From Pontibacter sp. G13 (GTDB taxonomy: Bacteria > Bacteroidota > Bacteroidia > J057), in assembly GCF_031851795.1 (NCBI RefSeq), contig NZ_CP134696.1:806001-870000 (forward strand): 64,000 bases of DNA. Reading direction: 5' to 3'. A program made the translations under genes and the position numbers. This document shows positions 4,601 to 60,420 of the stretch, piece by piece. The stretch's first letter is position 1. Each line of letters starts with the position of its first letter. The notes beneath the pieces were generated by a model. It saw nothing but the letters and a program-made list of their open reading frames with translations. It was not told the origin of the DNA and ran no database searches.

Positions 4601-4827
4601 ATTTGGGGGTGCCTCGGCGTGCTGGGCATTTGATTGTGCGCAACCAAGATCGGTCGCCGAGTCGGGCTGATCCATGGGGTCGTTGCACTCCGTCCTCGCA
4701 AGGTCTTAATCTCTGGCAGGTTTCTTTTCCCTACCCTATTTGAAGGCCATTCATCGGTCCTCTGCCGCTCGGACCTCGCCAAAGGCTCGCCATTCCCATC
4801 CCTCACCCCGCACGAGCCAGCCAGCAC
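4601..4827 (-). repeat. Dispersed intergenic element, copy A
   Basis: One of five related elements in the window (A 4601, B 15127, C 26439, D 33987, E 60195). Read on the minus strand it begins GTGCTGGCTGGCTCGTGCGG, continues with GTGAGGGATGGGAATGG, carries the core GAGGACGGAGTGCAACGA followed by CCCATGGATCAGCCCGA, and ends with GGCACCCCCAAAT. It lies between two convergent genes and fills most of the 400-bp gap. No credible open reading frame crosses it. Confidence 0.8.
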
Positions 4828-15126: not shown

Positions 15127-15359
15127 GTGCGGCTGGCTGGTGTGGGGTGAGGTGCCTGAAGGATTCAGTCGGTGGTATACGGGACCTATCTTAGTGGAGA
15201 TCGTCGGCTGCGGCCCTTGTGGTCGCCCTTCATCACGCATGCGGGAGTTGACCTCACCTTTCCACCGACCGAGCGTCCAGCGAGTCCGGAAGGGACCGAC
15301 CTCGCGACCTGCATGCTCGGGAGAAAAGACTGCCTCAGCACGCGAGGGCACCCCCTAAT
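15127..15359 (+). repeat. Dispersed intergenic element, copy B
   Basis: It begins GTGCGGCTGGCTGGTGTGGG and ends CGCGAGGGCACCCCCTAAT; the central block is more divergent, with CGAGCGTCCAGCGAGTCC and CCTCGCGACC still recognisable. It lies between two convergent genes, like copies A and D. Confidence 0.75.
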
Positions 15360-25553: not shown

Positions 25554-26342
25554 TTACCCAAATACGCCAAACTGTTTCAGGGCGGCAGCGGCTACCACCA
25601 CGATCAATAATCGGTGAATCCACTGGTCAGCATTAGGGACACGAGAGACAAACCTCACCCCGATAACGGCTCCTATGGACTGAAAAATCGCCATCAGGAA
25701 TCCCAAGAGCCAGTTGACCTGGCCATTGTACCAAAAGGTCAGCAAAGCCGGAATACAGAAGGCAATCACTGCGAGGAGCTTCACGGCATTGGCCGAAGCG
25801 AGGTTGAATCCTGCGCGTAATACCAAGCCCGCCAAGAGCATAATTCCCACCCCAGCCTGTAAAAAGCCTCCATAAATCCCAATCAGGAACATGAGACCAA
25901 TGGTCAGCGGGTGCTTGACCTTGGCCGGATCGAAGGTCGATTCACGAATCCAGCGCTTGGGATTCAACAGAAGGACCCCCAACATGAATACCATCAGACC
26001 ACCGATGGCGTAATGCATAATCTCCTCGTTGAGATCGACTGCGATGAGCGATCCAAGGGTAGCCCCCAATGCCGACGGCACCAAGATCCACACCAACCCC
26101 TCGGTGGGAAGGTTTCCCGCCTTTTTGAAGCCGGCAACCCCAACCAGACTTTGGAGGAAAACTCCTACGCGATTGGTACCATTGGCTACCGAGGCCGGCA
26201 ATCCGCAGACGTACATAAAAATAGGCAGCGTGACCAATGATCCGCTACCTGCCAGTGTATTGATGACTCCTGTCCCGATGCCGGCTACCACAAAAATGAG
26301 CCAGCCCATGGGATCGAGTGGATTTTCGAACGCAAGATTCAT
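25554..26342 (-). CDS. TauE/SafE-family membrane exporter
   Basis: A 262-residue integral membrane protein with about eight helices, of the TauE/SafE family (sulfite, sulfoacetate or related anion export). The start at 26342 gives MNLAFENPLDPMGWLIFVVA, with the family motif VINTLAGSGSLVTLPIFMYV in the first helices and ANGTNRVGVFLQSLVGV shortly after. The second half repeats this with GGFLQAGVGIMLLAGLVLRA and ASANAVKLLAVIAFC, the internal duplication normal for this family. The open frame reaches 26549 upstream but runs into dispersed element C and is not coding there. The transported anion is not known. Confidence 0.92.
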   Translation of the reverse strand: MNLAFENPLDPMGWLIFVVAGIGTGVINTLAGSGSLVTLPIFMYVCGLPASVANGTNRVGVFLQSLVGVAGFKKAGNLPTEGLVWILVPSALGATLGSLIAVDLNEEIMHYAIGGLMVFMLGVLLLNPKRWIRESTFDPAKVKHPLTIGLMFLIGIYGGFLQAGVGIMLLAGLVLRAGFNLASANAVKLLAVIAFCIPALLTFWYNGQVNWLLGFLMAIFQSIGAVIGVRFVSRVPNADQWIHRLLIVVVAAAALKQFGVFG

Positions 26343-26438
26343 GTATCTCAAATTGAACGATTCCCCAGATTTGTTCAAGATCTGATCCGGGCAAGTTAGC
26401 CAAATAATCGAAGCAAGAAAGTCCCTCCCTGATAAGTT

Positions 26439-26643
26439 GTGCGGCTGGCACGTGTGGCGTGAGGGATCCGAAGGGGTAGTCGGAGGGGCATTATAGATCT
26501 TCTCTGGAAGGATGGACGACCCGCTCAGCTTGTTATGTCGAGGAAGCACGGATGGCCCTACGACCGTAGCCCGGAGGAGCCCGACCCCGCGACTAGCCTA
26601 CCGAGCGCTGTACGTCTTCTCAGATCGCGGGGGCACGCCCAAA
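26439..26643 (+). repeat. Dispersed intergenic element, copy C
   Basis: It begins GTGCGGCTGGCACGTGTGGC followed by GTGAGGGAT and ends CGCGGGGGCACGCCCAAA. The core is divergent (CGTAGCCCGGAGGAGCCCGA, CCCCGCGA). At 205 bp it is the shortest copy. It lies between the 5' end of the TauE gene and the 3' end of the giant surface-protein gene. Confidence 0.8.
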
Positions 26644-26664
26644 GCCGCCAAATGACCAAGCGTA

Positions 26665-26733: not shown

Positions 26734-29700
26734 CTATTCGACTTTCTGGAAAACGCTCGACAGCATTCCCTCCTCGGTCATCACTTGCAGATGGTAGGTG
26801 CCGCCTGCATCCACCTCGCTCAAGTCAATCTTCCAGGTAGTCTGGCCATTTCGGAGTTCAACATTCCCCGTCAATACGATTCGCCCTTGAAGATCCAAGA
26901 TGCGGAAGGTGCCTGCTCCCATTTTGGAATCGGTGATTTTGGCCGTCAGTACCGAAGCTGCTGGCACCGGATACACGGTCAATTCTGGCTCACCTGCTTG
27001 CATGGTCCGAGGCGACGTTCCTCCACTGGACTGCGGAATAAACCCGGCATCGAATTGCGTGAACACCTGGCTTCCTTGAGTAGCTTGGAAGGTCGGAGTC
27101 ATTCCATCGACCAAGGCAGCATCAGAATCCGCAGCAGGATTGGCGCCCTGGTTGGCTGGTGAACGACCATAATTGGCTGGCAATACAAATTCGAGTTTCA
27201 CCGGAATATCAGCAGGAACCCCTGTGAAGGTGGCAAACCCGGAAAGGCCGGAAACGGTCGACTGTAGCTCTTGGCCATTGGCATCCAGCAACTTCACGAG
27301 TGCCCCAAAGATCGGCGTCTCTCCGGCATCTTGCTTTCCGTCTCCATCCAGATCTTTCCAGACATAGGCCTCTACTGCGGCTGGACCAAAGAATCCGGCG
27401 TCCACGGTATCGATGGTTCCATTGCCTCTATCCAATTGGAAGGCTGCGGTTTTGCCATCCGGAAGCTCTGCATCGGAGTCACGGTTCTGATCGAAGTATG
27501 TATTTTCCGGAGCGCGTGCATGACCGGATTTCGCATCGAATTGGAGTTTCACCGGAGCATCTGCCGGAACGCCTGTAAAGGTGGCAATTCCAGAACCGTC
27601 AGATACGGTTGATTGAAGCAGCTGATCATTGTTGTCCAGCAGTTTCACTGGAGATCCAGCGATTGGGGTTTCCCCTGCATCTTGCTTGCCATTGCCGTTC
27701 AGGTCGTTCCAGACGTAGGCGAGGATGGTACCGGGTGAATAGAATCCTGCATCTACATGTTCGAAGACTTGATTTCCCTGAGTCGCTTGGAAGAGGGCAG
27801 TCCTGCCATCTGCTGGATCTGCGTCGGAGTCAATGGCCGGATTGGACACGGCCATAAGCGGCGATCTTCCGTGTCCGGTCATATCTACAAATTCCAATTG
27901 GACAGGCTGGTCCGCGGGAACATCGGAGAATGCAATCTCTCCATTGGCATCGGTGGAGAGCAATTGAAGCTGTGCTCCTCCAGCATCGAGCAATTTGACC
28001 ATCGCGCCCGGAATCCCCGGTTCTCCGGCATCTTGTTTTCCATTTCCATTGGTGTCGTCCCAAACTCGGGATTCAACCGTGCCCGGAGACAAGAACCCTG
28101 CATCGTACTGGATGAGGAATTTCTTGGCCTTGGTCGTGAAGACAATGGTTTGGCTGGTAGTTGGATCTACATCGGAGTCGTTGTAGTCGCCAAGGCTTTG
28201 GTCCAGTCCTGCGAATCCATGATCCACCGGACGCACGAATTCAAGCTTCACCTGAAGTCCTCCCTGAAGATCCACGAAGTTGATGTAGCCTTTGGAATTG
28301 GTCGTGCCTTGTTCGAGTACTTGATTGGTAGGCGAAAGGAGTTTCACCACCACGTCTGGAATGCCCGGCTCGAAGCCGTCCTGCTTTCCATTGCCATTTT
28401 GATCATCCCACACATAGGAGGTAATATGGGCCAGATTGGGATCATAGGCCAGCAAACAGTCTGCTTCTTTATCTTGGTTGATATCCAGTTCAGGGAATCC
28501 ACAGCCACAATCCCCCGGGGCGATTTTGTCCGCATCCGCTGGACAAAGGTCATCACAATCGAGTGTTCCGTCGCCATCACTGTCGACATCTGCCACCCCA
28601 CAGCCGCAAGCTCCTGCGACGATCTTGTTCGGATCGCTTGGGCATTCATCCAAACAATCTAGTGTGCCGTCACCGTCCGTGTCTGTATCCGCTACGCCAC
28701 ACCCGCAGTTTCCAGCGGCAATTTTGTTCGGGTCAGTCGGGCAGGCATCCGCGCAGTCGGCGGTGCCATCGCCGTCCGTGTCTGTATCCGCCACGCCACA
28801 GCCGCAATCTCCAGCGGCGATCTTGTTTGGATCGGCCGGACAGGCATCCGCACAATCGGCGGTCCCATCACCGTCTGAATCCGTATCAGCCACGCCACAG
28901 CCGCAATCTCCAGCGACGATCTTGTTCGGGTCGGTCGGGCAGGCGTCAGCGCAGTCGGCGGTCCCATCACCGTCTGAATCCGTATCAGCCACGCCACAGC
29001 CGCAATCTCCAGCGACGATCTTGTTCGGGTCGGTCGGGCAGGCGTCAGCGCAGTCGGCGGTCCCATCACCATCCGTGTCTGTATCCGCTACGCCACAGCC
29101 ACAGTCTCCAGCAGCGATCTTGTAAGGATCAGTCGGGCAGGCGTCAGCGCAATCGGCGGTGCCATCGCCGTCCGTATCCGTATCAGCCACGCCACAACCG
29201 CAGTCTCCAATGGCGATTTTGTTCGGGTCGGTCGGGCAGGCGTCGTTGCAGTCGGCGGTGCCATCACCGTCCGTGTCCGTATCCGCTACGCCACAGCCAC
29301 AGTCTCCAGCGGCGATCTTGTTCGGGTCAGTCGGGCAGGCATCCGCGCAGTCGGCGGTGCCATCGCCGTCCGTGTCTGTATCCGCTACGCCACAGCCACA
29401 ATCTCCAGCAGCGATTTTGTTCGGGTCAGTCGGGCAGGCGTCATTGCAGTCGGCGGTGCCATCGCCGTCCGTGTCCGTATCTGCTACGCCACAACCGCAG
29501 TCTCCAGCGGCGATTTTGTTCGGGTCAGTCGGGCAGGCATCCGCGCAGTCGGCGGTGCCATCGCCGTCCGTGTCCGTATCTGCTACGCCACAACCGCAGT
29601 CTCCAGCGGCGATTTTGTTCGGGTCAGTCGGGCAGGCATCCGCGCAGTCGGCGGCGCCATCGCCGTCCGTGTCTGTATCCGCTACGCCACAACCACAGTC

Positions 29701-31995
29701 TCCAGCGGCGATCTTGTTCGGGTCAGTTGGGCAGGCGTCCGCGCAGTCTGCGGTGCCATCGCCGTCCGTGTCCGTATCCGCTACACCACAACCGCAGTCT
29801 CCAGCGGCGATCTTGTTCGGGTCGGTCGGGCAGGCATCCGCGCAGTCGGCGGTGCCATCGCCGTCCGTGTCTGTATCTGCTACGCCACAACCGCAGTCTC
29901 CAGCGGCGATCTTGTTCGGGTCAGTCGGGCAGGCATCCGCGCAGTCTGCGGTGCCATCGCCGTCCGTGTCTGTATCCGCTACGCCACAACCGCAGTCTCC
30001 AGCGGCGATCTTGTTCGGGTCATTCGGGCAGGCATCCGCGCAGTCGGCGGTGCCATCTCCGTCGGAATCGGTATCCGCTACGCCACAACCACAGTCTCCA
30101 GCAGCGATCTTGTTCGGGTCGGTCGGGCAGCCATCGTTGCAGTCGGCGGTGCCATCGCCGTCCGTGTCCGTATCGGCTACTCCACAACCGCAAGTGCCGG
30201 GAGCTGTTTTGGCAGGATCTAATGGACATTGATCGTTGCAATCCAAGGTGCCATCGCCGTCGGAATCCGTATCCGCTACGCCACAGCCACAAGTGCCGGG
30301 AGCCGTTTTGGCAGGATCTAATGGACATAAGTCAGCACAGTCCGGTGTACCATCACCATCGGAATCCGTGGATTGGATGGTCAATGAAATCGTGTAGGTA
30401 ACCTCGCATCCATCGGAATCGGTAATCACTGCTGTGTAGGTACCAGAAGTCGTGTAGGTTTTCCCGTCGGGGGCCGTGTAGGAACCACAGGCAGATGGAG
30501 ATATACTGAAGGTTTTTGTGCAGCCACTGCTGTATTTGGCAAGGAAACCATCCTCAAAGGTACTCGTGGCAGTTTTGTTCAGGACAGTGGCAGTAGGATC
30601 GAAATCAATGGTGTTGTCGAATTGTCCAGCCACAAACAGGCTATTGGTTCCATCTATATCTATGCCGTAGCCAGCCTCAGAACTGGTCGAACCCAGGGCA
30701 TGACTCCATTGATACACACCATTGGTGGTGAAGGCATTGATGAATGCATCATTGCTCCCAGCGGTCGATTTGCTTGCAGTTCCGCTTCCCGGATCGAAAT
30801 CCACAGTTCCATTGAATCGACCGATCACATAGACATTGCCGTTTCCATCTACAGCCACGCCATATCCTCGATCGTCATTGGTGCTACTCCCAAATCCGTG
30901 TCCCCAAGCATAGGCACCGGAGGAGGTCAATTTCCCCAAGAAAACGTCGTAGGAGCCATTGGAGGTTTTCGCAGCGACGGTATAGGTGGGATCGAAATAG
31001 AAGGTTTCGCGAAATCGACCGGTATAGTAAATGGAATTGTCACTTCCCAAAGCCAGTCCATATCCTCTTTCGGTATTGGAACCGCCCATTCTGCGTCCCC
31101 AGACATAGCCACCAGATGCGGTGAGTTTCTGTACAAAGACATCATAGGACGAACCACCGGGAGGGGTAGACTTGTTGTCTGTCCCTGAATTTGGGTTCAT
31201 GTCCAGCGTCCCGCTATTGGTATCCCCAAAGATGAGCACATCCCCGTTGGAATCGACCGCCACCTCGATGGCTGCTTCTGTGCCTGTATTCCCGATTACC
31301 CTCACCCACAATTCCACCCCGGCACTTGAGACCTTCAGAACATAGACATCCGAAGAGTTACTCACAGATGAAGCCACGGATACAGAGCCAAAGGTCGTGG
31401 CTCCCTGATAGGAACCTACCACATAGATACTTCCATCAGCTGCTACGGCGATCCCGTTGGCAAATAGATTGGAGTTTCCGCCATAGTTCTGGACCCATTG
31501 GAGAACGCCAGCACTATTGAATTTCTGTAGGAACACGTTGTTGCCACTACCAGAGCTGATGGCCGAGGTTCCAGCGCCCGGATTGAAATCTACATTGGTA
31601 CCATTGAAGGTACCCATCGTGTAGACGTTTCCGGAGGCATCCACCGCCAAATGATCTCCTTGATTGGCGACATTCCCTTCCATTGCATAAGCCCAGAGCG
31701 GATTGCCATTGGAATCATATTTGATCAAAAAGCGATTGCCGTCGGTATCATAGATCGTGATGGTCCCTACTGTGAGGGTCCCTTGGAAATATCCAGTTGC
31801 GTACACATGATTATTGGCATCGGCGACTACGCTGTAAATGACAGCATCGCCGCTAGCGCTAGAGTTGGCAGGTCCAATGGTTTGAACCCATTCGGCTGGC
31901 AAAGCCGATTGAGCAGAAGCAAGTTGCAGGGACAAACAGCCCATCAGCAACAAACAGAGGCTAGCCAGGGAGCGCCTCCAAACGGTTGAGTCCAT
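26734..31995 (-). CDS. Giant T9SS-exported surface protein with TSP3 array
   Basis: A 1753-residue surface or adhesin-like protein. A signal peptide (MDSTVWRRSLASLCLLLMGC, then LSLQLASAQ) is followed by about residues 35-495 with repeated beta-propeller blades of the SBBP type (phrases such as GNVYVIGRFNGTVDFDPGSG). Next comes a Cys-containing linker (ACGSYTAPDGKTYTTSG). Residues about 543-1180 are 18 thrombospondin type-3 units of 33 residues (DTDGDGTADC-ADACPTDPNK), which bind calcium. Four SdrD-B-like domains (YVWDDQNGNGKQD and relatives) occupy about 1190-1650, and a type A sorting domain (ELTVYPVPAASV, then FRILDLQGRIV) ends the protein. It is exported through the type IX system and held on the surface. 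The YPVP form of the sorting motif differs slightly from the usual YPNP. Confidence 0.95.
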   Translation of the reverse strand: MDSTVWRRSLASLCLLLMGCLSLQLASAQSALPAEWVQTIGPANSSASGDAVIYSVVADANNHVYATGYFQGTLTVGTITIYDTDGNRFLIKYDSNGNPLWAYAMEGNVANQGDHLAVDASGNVYTMGTFNGTNVDFNPGAGTSAISSGSGNNVFLQKFNSAGVLQWVQNYGGNSNLFANGIAVAADGSIYVVGSYQGATTFGSVSVASSVSNSSDVYVLKVSSAGVELWVRVIGNTGTEAAIEVAVDSNGDVLIFGDTNSGTLDMNPNSGTDNKSTPPGGSSYDVFVQKLTASGGYVWGRRMGGSNTERGYGLALGSDNSIYYTGRFRETFYFDPTYTVAAKTSNGSYDVFLGKLTSSGAYAWGHGFGSSTNDDRGYGVAVDGNGNVYVIGRFNGTVDFDPGSGTASKSTAGSNDAFINAFTTNGVYQWSHALGSTSSEAGYGIDIDGTNSLFVAGQFDNTIDFDPTATVLNKTATSTFEDGFLAKYSSGCTKTFSISPSACGSYTAPDGKTYTTSGTYTAVITDSDGCEVTYTISLTIQSTDSDGDGTPDCADLCPLDPAKTAPGTCGCGVADTDSDGDGTLDCNDQCPLDPAKTAPGTCGCGVADTDTDGDGTADCNDGCPTDPNKIAAGDCGCGVADTDSDGDGTADCADACPNDPNKIAAGDCGCGVADTDTDGDGTADCADACPTDPNKIAAGDCGCGVADTDTDGDGTADCADACPTDPNKIAAGDCGCGVADTDTDGDGTADCADACPTDPNKIAAGDCGCGVADTDTDGDGAADCADACPTDPNKIAAGDCGCGVADTDTDGDGTADCADACPTDPNKIAAGDCGCGVADTDTDGDGTADCNDACPTDPNKIAAGDCGCGVADTDTDGDGTADCADACPTDPNKIAAGDCGCGVADTDTDGDGTADCNDACPTDPNKIAIGDCGCGVADTDTDGDGTADCADACPTDPYKIAAGDCGCGVADTDTDGDGTADCADACPTDPNKIVAGDCGCGVADTDSDGDGTADCADACPTDPNKIVAGDCGCGVADTDSDGDGTADCADACPADPNKIAAGDCGCGVADTDTDGDGTADCADACPTDPNKIAAGNCGCGVADTDTDGDGTLDCLDECPSDPNKIVAGACGCGVADVDSDGDGTLDCDDLCPADADKIAPGDCGCGFPELDINQDKEADCLLAYDPNLAHITSYVWDDQNGNGKQDGFEPGIPDVVVKLLSPTNQVLEQGTTNSKGYINFVDLQGGLQVKLEFVRPVDHGFAGLDQSLGDYNDSDVDPTTSQTIVFTTKAKKFLIQYDAGFLSPGTVESRVWDDTNGNGKQDAGEPGIPGAMVKLLDAGGAQLQLLSTDANGEIAFSDVPADQPVQLEFVDMTGHGRSPLMAVSNPAIDSDADPADGRTALFQATQGNQVFEHVDAGFYSPGTILAYVWNDLNGNGKQDAGETPIAGSPVKLLDNNDQLLQSTVSDGSGIATFTGVPADAPVKLQFDAKSGHARAPENTYFDQNRDSDAELPDGKTAAFQLDRGNGTIDTVDAGFFGPAAVEAYVWKDLDGDGKQDAGETPIFGALVKLLDANGQELQSTVSGLSGFATFTGVPADIPVKLEFVLPANYGRSPANQGANPAADSDAALVDGMTPTFQATQGSQVFTQFDAGFIPQSSGGTSPRTMQAGEPELTVYPVPAASVLTAKITDSKMGAGTFRILDLQGRIVLTGNVELRNGQTTWKIDLSEVDAGGTYHLQVMTEEGMLSSVFQKVE
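28455..30370 (-). repeat. 99-bp tandem repeat array encoding thrombospondin-3 units
   Basis: Eighteen full 33-codon units plus partial flanking units lie in tandem inside the giant surface-protein gene. Most differ by only one or two residues (A/N at the DAC position, IAA/IVA/IAI, one PYK, one DGAADC) and are nearly identical in DNA. Outer units at both ends are the most divergent, the pattern expected from unequal crossing over in the centre. The array keeps long frames open on the opposite strand. Confidence 0.95.
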
Positions 31996-33986: not shown

Positions 33987-34214
33987 GTGCGGCTGGCAGG
34001 TGTGGCGTGAGCGGGCGTAATGGCGCGACTTCAGGAGCGGTCCGAGGCATTTGGGAGGAAGAGTTGGGATTGGATGATTGTTCCGCACCAAAAGGAAATT
34101 CAGCCAAGGAATAAATCGCCGAGGACGGAGCGCAGCGAACCCATGCAGCACGCGACCCCGCGAATCATTTGCCAAGGGGAAGCCCTATTCTAAGCTCGCG
34201 GGGGCACGCCCAAA
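33987..34214 (+). repeat. Dispersed intergenic element, copy D
   Basis: The ends are GTGCGGCTGGCAGGTGTGGC and CGCGGGGGCACGCCCAAAT; the core is GAGGACGGAGCGCAGCGAAC followed by CCATG and ACCCCGCGA. It lies between convergent genes, 12 bp after a stop codon, and is followed within 32 bp by the tandem terminator array. Confidence 0.85.
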
Positions 34215-34245
34215 TGCTCCAACAATCAAGACAATAAAGAATAAC

Positions 34246-60194: not shown

Positions 60195-60420
60195 ATTTGG
60201 GCGTATCCCAGCGATCTTGGCCCCATGATGTCGCTTGGCATTCCCGTCGCTGGGCCGGGCTGATCCATGGGTTCGCTACGCTCCGTCCTCGTGTCAATGG
60301 CTGCTCAAACCTGAAAAGAACCCCAAAAAGGAAATCGACCTAAGACGCAAGATTCCCCTACTCGGACTGCTGCTGAGGCAGCACCATTCCCATCCCTTAC
60401 GCCGCACCAGCCAGCCGCAC
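60195..60420 (-). repeat. Dispersed intergenic element, copy E
   Basis: Read on the minus strand the ends are GTGCGGCTGGCTGGTGCGGC and GGATACGCCCAAAT, with GTAAGGGATGGGAATGG near the start and the core GAGGACGGAGCGTAGCGAAC followed by CCATGGATCAGCCCGG. It lies 84 bp upstream of the sulfatase start codon and 12 bp after the MscS stop codon. It is the best-preserved copy together with A. Confidence 0.85.

Follow-up and report, generated by a model that had tools for sequence, protein, structure and literature searches.

The stretch of DNA analysed here (the window, 64,000 nucleotides) carries five copies of an intergenic element (Table 1), along with a Por_Secre_tail domain that is consistent with Bacteroidetes. 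The initial annotation had described these copies as one family, and both the family and its coordinates proved real: a covariance model (R1; 168 positions with 35 pairs, built on 26 copies) matches all five, with E-values of 4e-36 to 3e-21, and sets their ends within one base of those first proposed. Gene calls place a gene 3′ end next to each copy and convergent genes around three of them (copies 1, 2 and 4), again as described. The alignment also contains the common opening, core and end blocks of that description, except that the core blocks are limited to one of two subtypes. Subtype A (copies 1, 4 and 5), in which these core blocks are real, is marked by GAGGACGGAGCGYAGCGAACCCATGGATCAGCC, whereas copies 2 and 3 belong to a second subtype, B, marked by GACCGAGCG..AGCGAGTCCGGAAGG, of which copy 3 is a divergent member.

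The tail of copy 3 points to the 3′ end of the gene at 26734-31995 (minus strand). At 26342-26644, the GTG start of a 331-aa open reading frame (25554-26549, minus strand), a TauE/SafE gene, would fall inside copy 3; the gene caller sets the start of this gene at 26342.

Table 1. Element copies in the window and parts of copy 5 (bit scores and E-value from R1).
Feature	Coordinates	Strand	Remarks
Copy 1	4601..4827	-	Arm type A, between convergent genes; 133.4 bits
Copy 2	15127..15359	+	Arm type B, between convergent genes; 104.8 bits
Copy 3	26439..26644	+	Divergent B-like arm, between tandem genes; 96.6 bits
Copy 4	33987..34215	+	Arm type A, between convergent genes; 139.7 bits
Copy 5	60195..60420	-	Arm type A, long P5 loop; 159.2 bits, E 3.7e-36
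Copy 5, P1 5′ strand GGCGTA	60398..60403	-	Pairs with 60200-60205
Copy 5, P1 3′ strand TACGCC	60200..60205	-	Partner of 60398..60403
Copy 5, P5 5′ strand GTCC	60364..60367	-	Pairs with 60285-60288
Copy 5, variable P5 loop, 75 nt	60289..60363	-	
Copy 5, P5 3′ strand GGAC	60285..60288	-	Partner of 60364..60367
Copy 5, P7 5′ strand CCCAGCGA	60247..60254	-	Pairs with 60207-60214
Copy 5, hypervariable P7 loop	60215..60246	-	TGCCAAG-type motifs
Copy 5, P7 3′ strand TCGCTGGG	60207..60214	-	Partner of 60247..60254

Fold and covariation of the element

Read from GTGCGG to CAAAT, the element consists of a 5′ tail followed by seven helices, P1 to P7. The helix P1 (GGCGTR/YACGCC) closes the whole arm and encloses the P2-P6 domain and the P7 hairpin. 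The P4 hairpin is specific to subtype A, P6 is tiny, and the P5 loop falls into three length classes of ~11, 34 and 74 nt. P7 is a GC-rich helix of 8 bp with a loop of ~34 nt. The complex fold also contains conserved unpaired motifs.

The initial annotation had suggested an alignment and a covariance model, and these yielded the seven-helix fold with very strong covariation, not conservation of the short ends alone. Among 150 copies, 88.4% of the cells in the seven helices pair, and double-sided changes number 732, whereas shuffled controls give 195 ± 10 and slid ones 38-106. This 150-copy alignment was fitted to R1; the first MAFFT alignment shows the same picture, and RNAalifold independently recovers P1, P2 and P7. 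In the distant genus g56, double-sided changes number 585, against 172 in shuffles. Among the copies, P1 co-varies as GGCGTA/TACGCC, GGCGTG/CACGCC and GGGGTG/CACCCC, and 91.5% of P7 pairs are formed, by several pair types. The claim that the interior varies freely does not hold, as changes mostly come in pairs across the helices and free variation is confined to the P5 loop, the P7 loop and a 5′ segment. Even where two copies have cores that are 95-98% identical, their P7 loops match no better than random sequence, and recent copies show a graded series; the cores thus appear to be constrained copy by copy. The intact core with saturated loops might reflect either in-place selection on the copies, or mobility that repeatedly renews them.

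The hypervariable P7 loop and 5′ segment of otherwise near-identical copies would suit a guide-type RNA with programmable loops, such as a TnpB/IscB omega-RNA or an IS110 bridge RNA. Against it, comparison of the P7 loop, 5′ segment and P5 loop with the flanks revealed no complementarity or identity beyond permuted pairs, and no pairing was found between the 5′ segment and the P7 loop. Genome-wide matches to P5-loop 14-mers are at shuffle level; those to P7 loops are slightly above shuffles, partly owing to unmasked element remnants. Moreover, a partner search confined to TnpB (PF07282) gave no domain above the cut-off in eight element-bearing genomes. The guide-type reading is already largely refuted, and we consider it very improbable.

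The pairing in the helices is unusually strict, with one-sided changes almost missing. At P1 position 31/347, the pairs are GC in 88, AT in 43, CG in 2 and TA in 2 copies, with no G-T among the 135 lettered cells, and an example pair of P4 in g56 is CG in 49, AT in 36, TA in 34 and GC in 24 copies, with one mismatch. G-T pairs occupy 2 of 1,476 cells of P1 and P5 in this genome, and 10 cells against ~4,385 Watson-Crick cells in the g56 helices. By comparison, the acceptor and T stems of tRNAs from the same genomes have G-T in 21 of 276 cells (7.6%, versus <0.5%; Fisher p <1e-14). Across all helices of this genome, A-C is as rare as G-T, at 33 each. Selection at the RNA level should favour G-U over A-C, so that equal rarity points to folded DNA, a two-strand structure or palindrome correction. 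It favours folding that is DNA-level or strand-symmetric over a strand-specific RNA. Though real, the covariation alone does not imply an RNA. A protein-bound RNA or quasipalindrome correction could also account for strict Watson-Crick pairing; we lean, with some reserve, towards folding at the level of DNA. The folded form would then act as single-stranded or cruciform DNA, as in REP/BIME, and some recombinase would recognise it.

The initial annotation had also offered a small RNA. A structured RNA transcribed from its own promoter or by read-through, acting in trans or binding a protein, with its copies left by past mobility, would explain the complex fold, the unpaired motifs and the covariation, and Rfam gives the related Flavo-1 family (discussed below) the entry type of sRNA gene. 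On the other hand, G-T is tolerated no better than A-C, unlike in the tRNAs of the same genomes, the flanks contain neither a conserved promoter-like motif on the head side nor a conserved terminator on the tail side, and the loops lack both guide complementarity to the flanks and an excess of P5-loop matches elsewhere. We consequently regard such an RNA as the less likely reading.

Copy number, placement and mobility

R1 has at least 150 matches in the genome (7.67 Mb in three contigs), including some on the small contig C3. Unselected sequence of 464 kb contains 21 copies, and the 16 copies in 400 kb outside the window extrapolate to ~307 genome-wide (95% interval 175-499); 184 copies were collected in 1.52 Mb, most of which was chosen around matches. 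The units are 165-250 bp long, and only 5 of 180 copies overlap a called gene. An Rfam scan of the window and copy 5 gave chance matches only, and a search of a plasmid collection gave no match. Two large non-coding intergenic arrays of this genome, with tandem repeats of ~540 bp and 114 bp, lie at L040:15652-17155 and L160:14600-15900.

Of 176 copies, 126 point their tail at a gene 3′ end, at a median distance of 80 bp from the stop codon (interquartile range 63-142). Gaps between convergent genes hold 70 of the 176 copies, compared to 16 in the avoided divergent gaps. Outside the tail, the sequence is poor in C; on the gene-sense strand it reads GGAKG ahead of ATTTGGG. Many tails have a strong terminator-like hairpin at a distance of 10-30 nt, and these hairpins belong to the neighbouring genes. 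The transcription-end structure considered at the outset is thus consistent with the facing of the tails, whereas the terminators seen belong to the neighbours. In its fuller form, this reading posits a host-maintained 3′-end structure or insulator that blocks read-through or convergent transcription in both directions and is selected site by site. Besides the convergent bias and the short distance to the stop codon, cores that stay intact though their loops are saturated speak for it, and strand-symmetric pairing would suit a two-way structure. However, some copies are found in divergent gaps or within long non-coding arrays, copy number varies widely between genera and even within one genus, and the fold lacks its own T tract after a hairpin. 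We judge this explanation rather improbable.

The terminators of neighbouring genes 10-30 nt from many ends could also recall a retro-mobile RNA or a degenerate group II intron, as the 5′ GTGCGG of the element (GUGCGG as RNA) appears to resemble the group II 5′ consensus. Here, however, it tends to be the tail, rather than the head, that faces the terminator, and P1 encloses the whole element, unlike the group II wheel. In addition, the window has no match to group II at the gathering threshold, and no reverse transcriptase is present in the element-bearing genomes G014, G020, G059, G098 and G131. An origin of this kind is hardly credible.

Evidence for insertion comes from copies that are 95-99% identical, in which the sequence just past the CCCAAAT end is unrelated; in several near-identical pairs, the flanks past GTGCGG are unrelated as well. 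The tandem array at locus L160 has one unit split by a copy and sister units that are empty, which provides a paralogous empty site. The left junction of this insertion is clean, whereas the right flank has diverged and ~12 bp of the target are missing, without duplication. The lack of direct-repeat target duplications noticed initially was borne out across the copies, as head and tail flanks resemble each other no more than permuted pairs do (z -0.6). Joined-flank searches returned the L160 site as the only informative empty site. Orthologous empty sites could not be read in g56, where 11 conserved gene pairs had the element in neither species and gene order is too scrambled. The g56 copies are all at least 12-25% diverged, with no fresh copies. 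The initial annotation had listed a mobile non-coding element among its suggestions and had named many copies and an empty site as its signs. Both were found, in the form of ~300 copies (175-500) and one empty site. Together with the overwhelming covariation and the unrelated flanks of near-identical copies, they make it likely that the elements are mobile.

In the three g56 congeners (L220-L259, L268-L279), gene order is scrambled almost cluster by cluster, and in the two g56 regions tested, the clusters on either side of the composite units map to different contigs.

Genes of the RAYT/Y1 type (PF01797) are absent from the element-bearing genomes G014, G020 and G059, and those of other genomes are not near copies, save at one Flavo-1 locus in G034. 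A partnership with RAYT/IS200 was rejected as a general feature, this being the single adjacent case. G034 has just one Y1 transposase gene and just one Flavo-1 match, 176 bp apart (L142/L115; G034:C3:218797-219419). Separately, the best RAYT/Y1 gene of the present genome (L129; C1:1435526-1435867, with 1.5 kb flanks) has many copies of Acido-Lenti-1 (RF01687) on both sides, in both orientations, one of which is above the gathering score; this suggests that Acido-Lenti-1 is the REP/BIME of a RAYT.

Head-to-head pairs and the composite unit

Neighbouring copies are arranged head-to-head with tails outward in 20 of the 21 pairs less than 1 kb apart (p 1e-11 against one quarter) and in 35 of the 44 pairs less than 3 kb apart (p 5e-14 against one quarter), and most of these pairs join one A and one B arm. 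In this genome, placement between convergent genes could account for part of this preference. The same layout recurs in g56, where R1 matches number 40 in G059, at least 141 in G098 and at least 116 in G131. The stretches of g56 chosen for matches contain 254 copies in 689 kb, with locally about one arm per 3 kb, and all 82 close pairs are head-to-head. The gaps between the arms are near-fixed in length; they measure 93-108 bp in G131 and have a median of 320 bp in G098, giving composite units of 340-358 bp and mostly 480-640 bp, respectively. These units have the inverted ends TTTTGGGCGTG...CACGCCCAAAA, with the consensus TTTTTTGGGCGTG...CACGCCCAAAA, and five g56 spacers that were translated contain short open reading frames only. 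The spacers of G098 units (L240-L259) harbour repeated palindromes, ACCTTGTTT...TTTTCAA...ACAAGGTTAAA, which form another folded repeat within the unit.

The elements of the window are best seen as arms of such a composite unit. A full unit would comprise an A and a B arm in head-to-head orientation, the tails of which point outwards and give it inverted ends (ATTTGGGCGT...ACGCCCAAAT), and single arms would be half-units or independent insertions. Accordingly, the initial statement that inverted terminal repeats are missing applies to single copies, but not to A/B pairs. Head-to-head pairs were also considered as gene cassettes and this idea was rejected: gaps of short or middle length in this genome consist mostly of non-coding arrays, longer ones carry unrelated genes, and no kind of gene common to the inter-arm gaps was seen.

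Relation to Flavo-1 and comparison with known repeats

Matches to R1 at E ≤0.01 occur in 7 of 60 relatives (this genome included) and, at 1e-6, in 12 of 295 members of the class, spread over several other families of it. The Rfam model of Flavo-1 (RF01705) has no match in the window or in the whole genome at its gathering cut-off of 42 bits, and it matches dozens of loci in G041, G057 and G029. Two loci in other genomes bridge the families: L085 is matched by RF01705 (E 2.2e-5) and R1 (E 0.003), and L111 by R1 (E 5.7e-6) and RF01705 (E 1.2e-5). Many Flavo-1 matches also sit inside the same outer shell, GCGTGAGGGAT...AGCCCGACC..GG..CACGCCCAAAT, and P1 at Flavo-1 loci co-varies between GCGTG/CACGC and GCGTT/AACGC. 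The bridging loci together with the shared shell place the elements in a Flavo-1 superfamily, outside RF01705 itself, and their identity as an expanded, diverged relative of Flavo-1 is secure.

With the fold, the copy number, the head-to-head layout, insertion with defined ends and the intergenic placement beside gene 3′ ends established, we read the elements as non-autonomous, non-coding mobile arms that act as folded DNA in the manner of BIMEs and form a diverged branch of the Flavo-1 superfamily, a reading to which we give a probability of about 0.5. More tentatively, Flavo-1 and its relatives might at large be phylum-wide bipartite mobile elements whose folded DNA is functional and whose recombinase is of an unlinked kind, instead of RNA genes. 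If so, covariation that has been taken as RNA structure may be DNA structure, and a major class of repeat DNA in these genomes would have gone unannotated. An orphan Rfam “RNA” thereby gains an anatomy, a range of copy numbers and a testable alternative, and the comparison of G-T with A-C would, if this is right, help to re-examine other orphan Rfam families, such as Acido-Lenti-1.

Flavo-1 (RF01705; Weinberg et al. 2010, PMC2864571), which that study lists as a probable, not cis-regulatory RNA of Bacteroidetes, is likewise multi-copy and intergenic and shares the outer shell. Its 76-nt Rfam model covers the inner domain only and leaves the shell out, whereas the elements here span 165-250 bp, add P1, P4, P5 and P7, have two arm subtypes and reach far higher copy numbers. 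Acido-Lenti-1, also filed in Rfam as an “RNA”, likewise behaves as an inverted repeat present in multiple copies, but its 46-nt model differs in sequence and fold. The composite unit resembles MITEs in its inverted ends, its lack of coding capacity and its hundreds of copies; it differs from them in the lack of a target-site duplication and in having long structured arms instead of short inverted repeats, and no parent transposon was found. REP/BIME sequences (e.g. the GTAG and CGTC REPs, PMC3733652) are also high-copy, extragenic and folded, occur singly or as inverted pairs, and share a presumed non-autonomous mobility. Compared to their units of 20-40 bp, the present elements are 5-10 times longer, contain multiple helices with internal domains, and have no consistent RAYT (Y1) neighbour. 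The elements thus differ from REP/BIME in size and in RAYT association, yet behave close to them.
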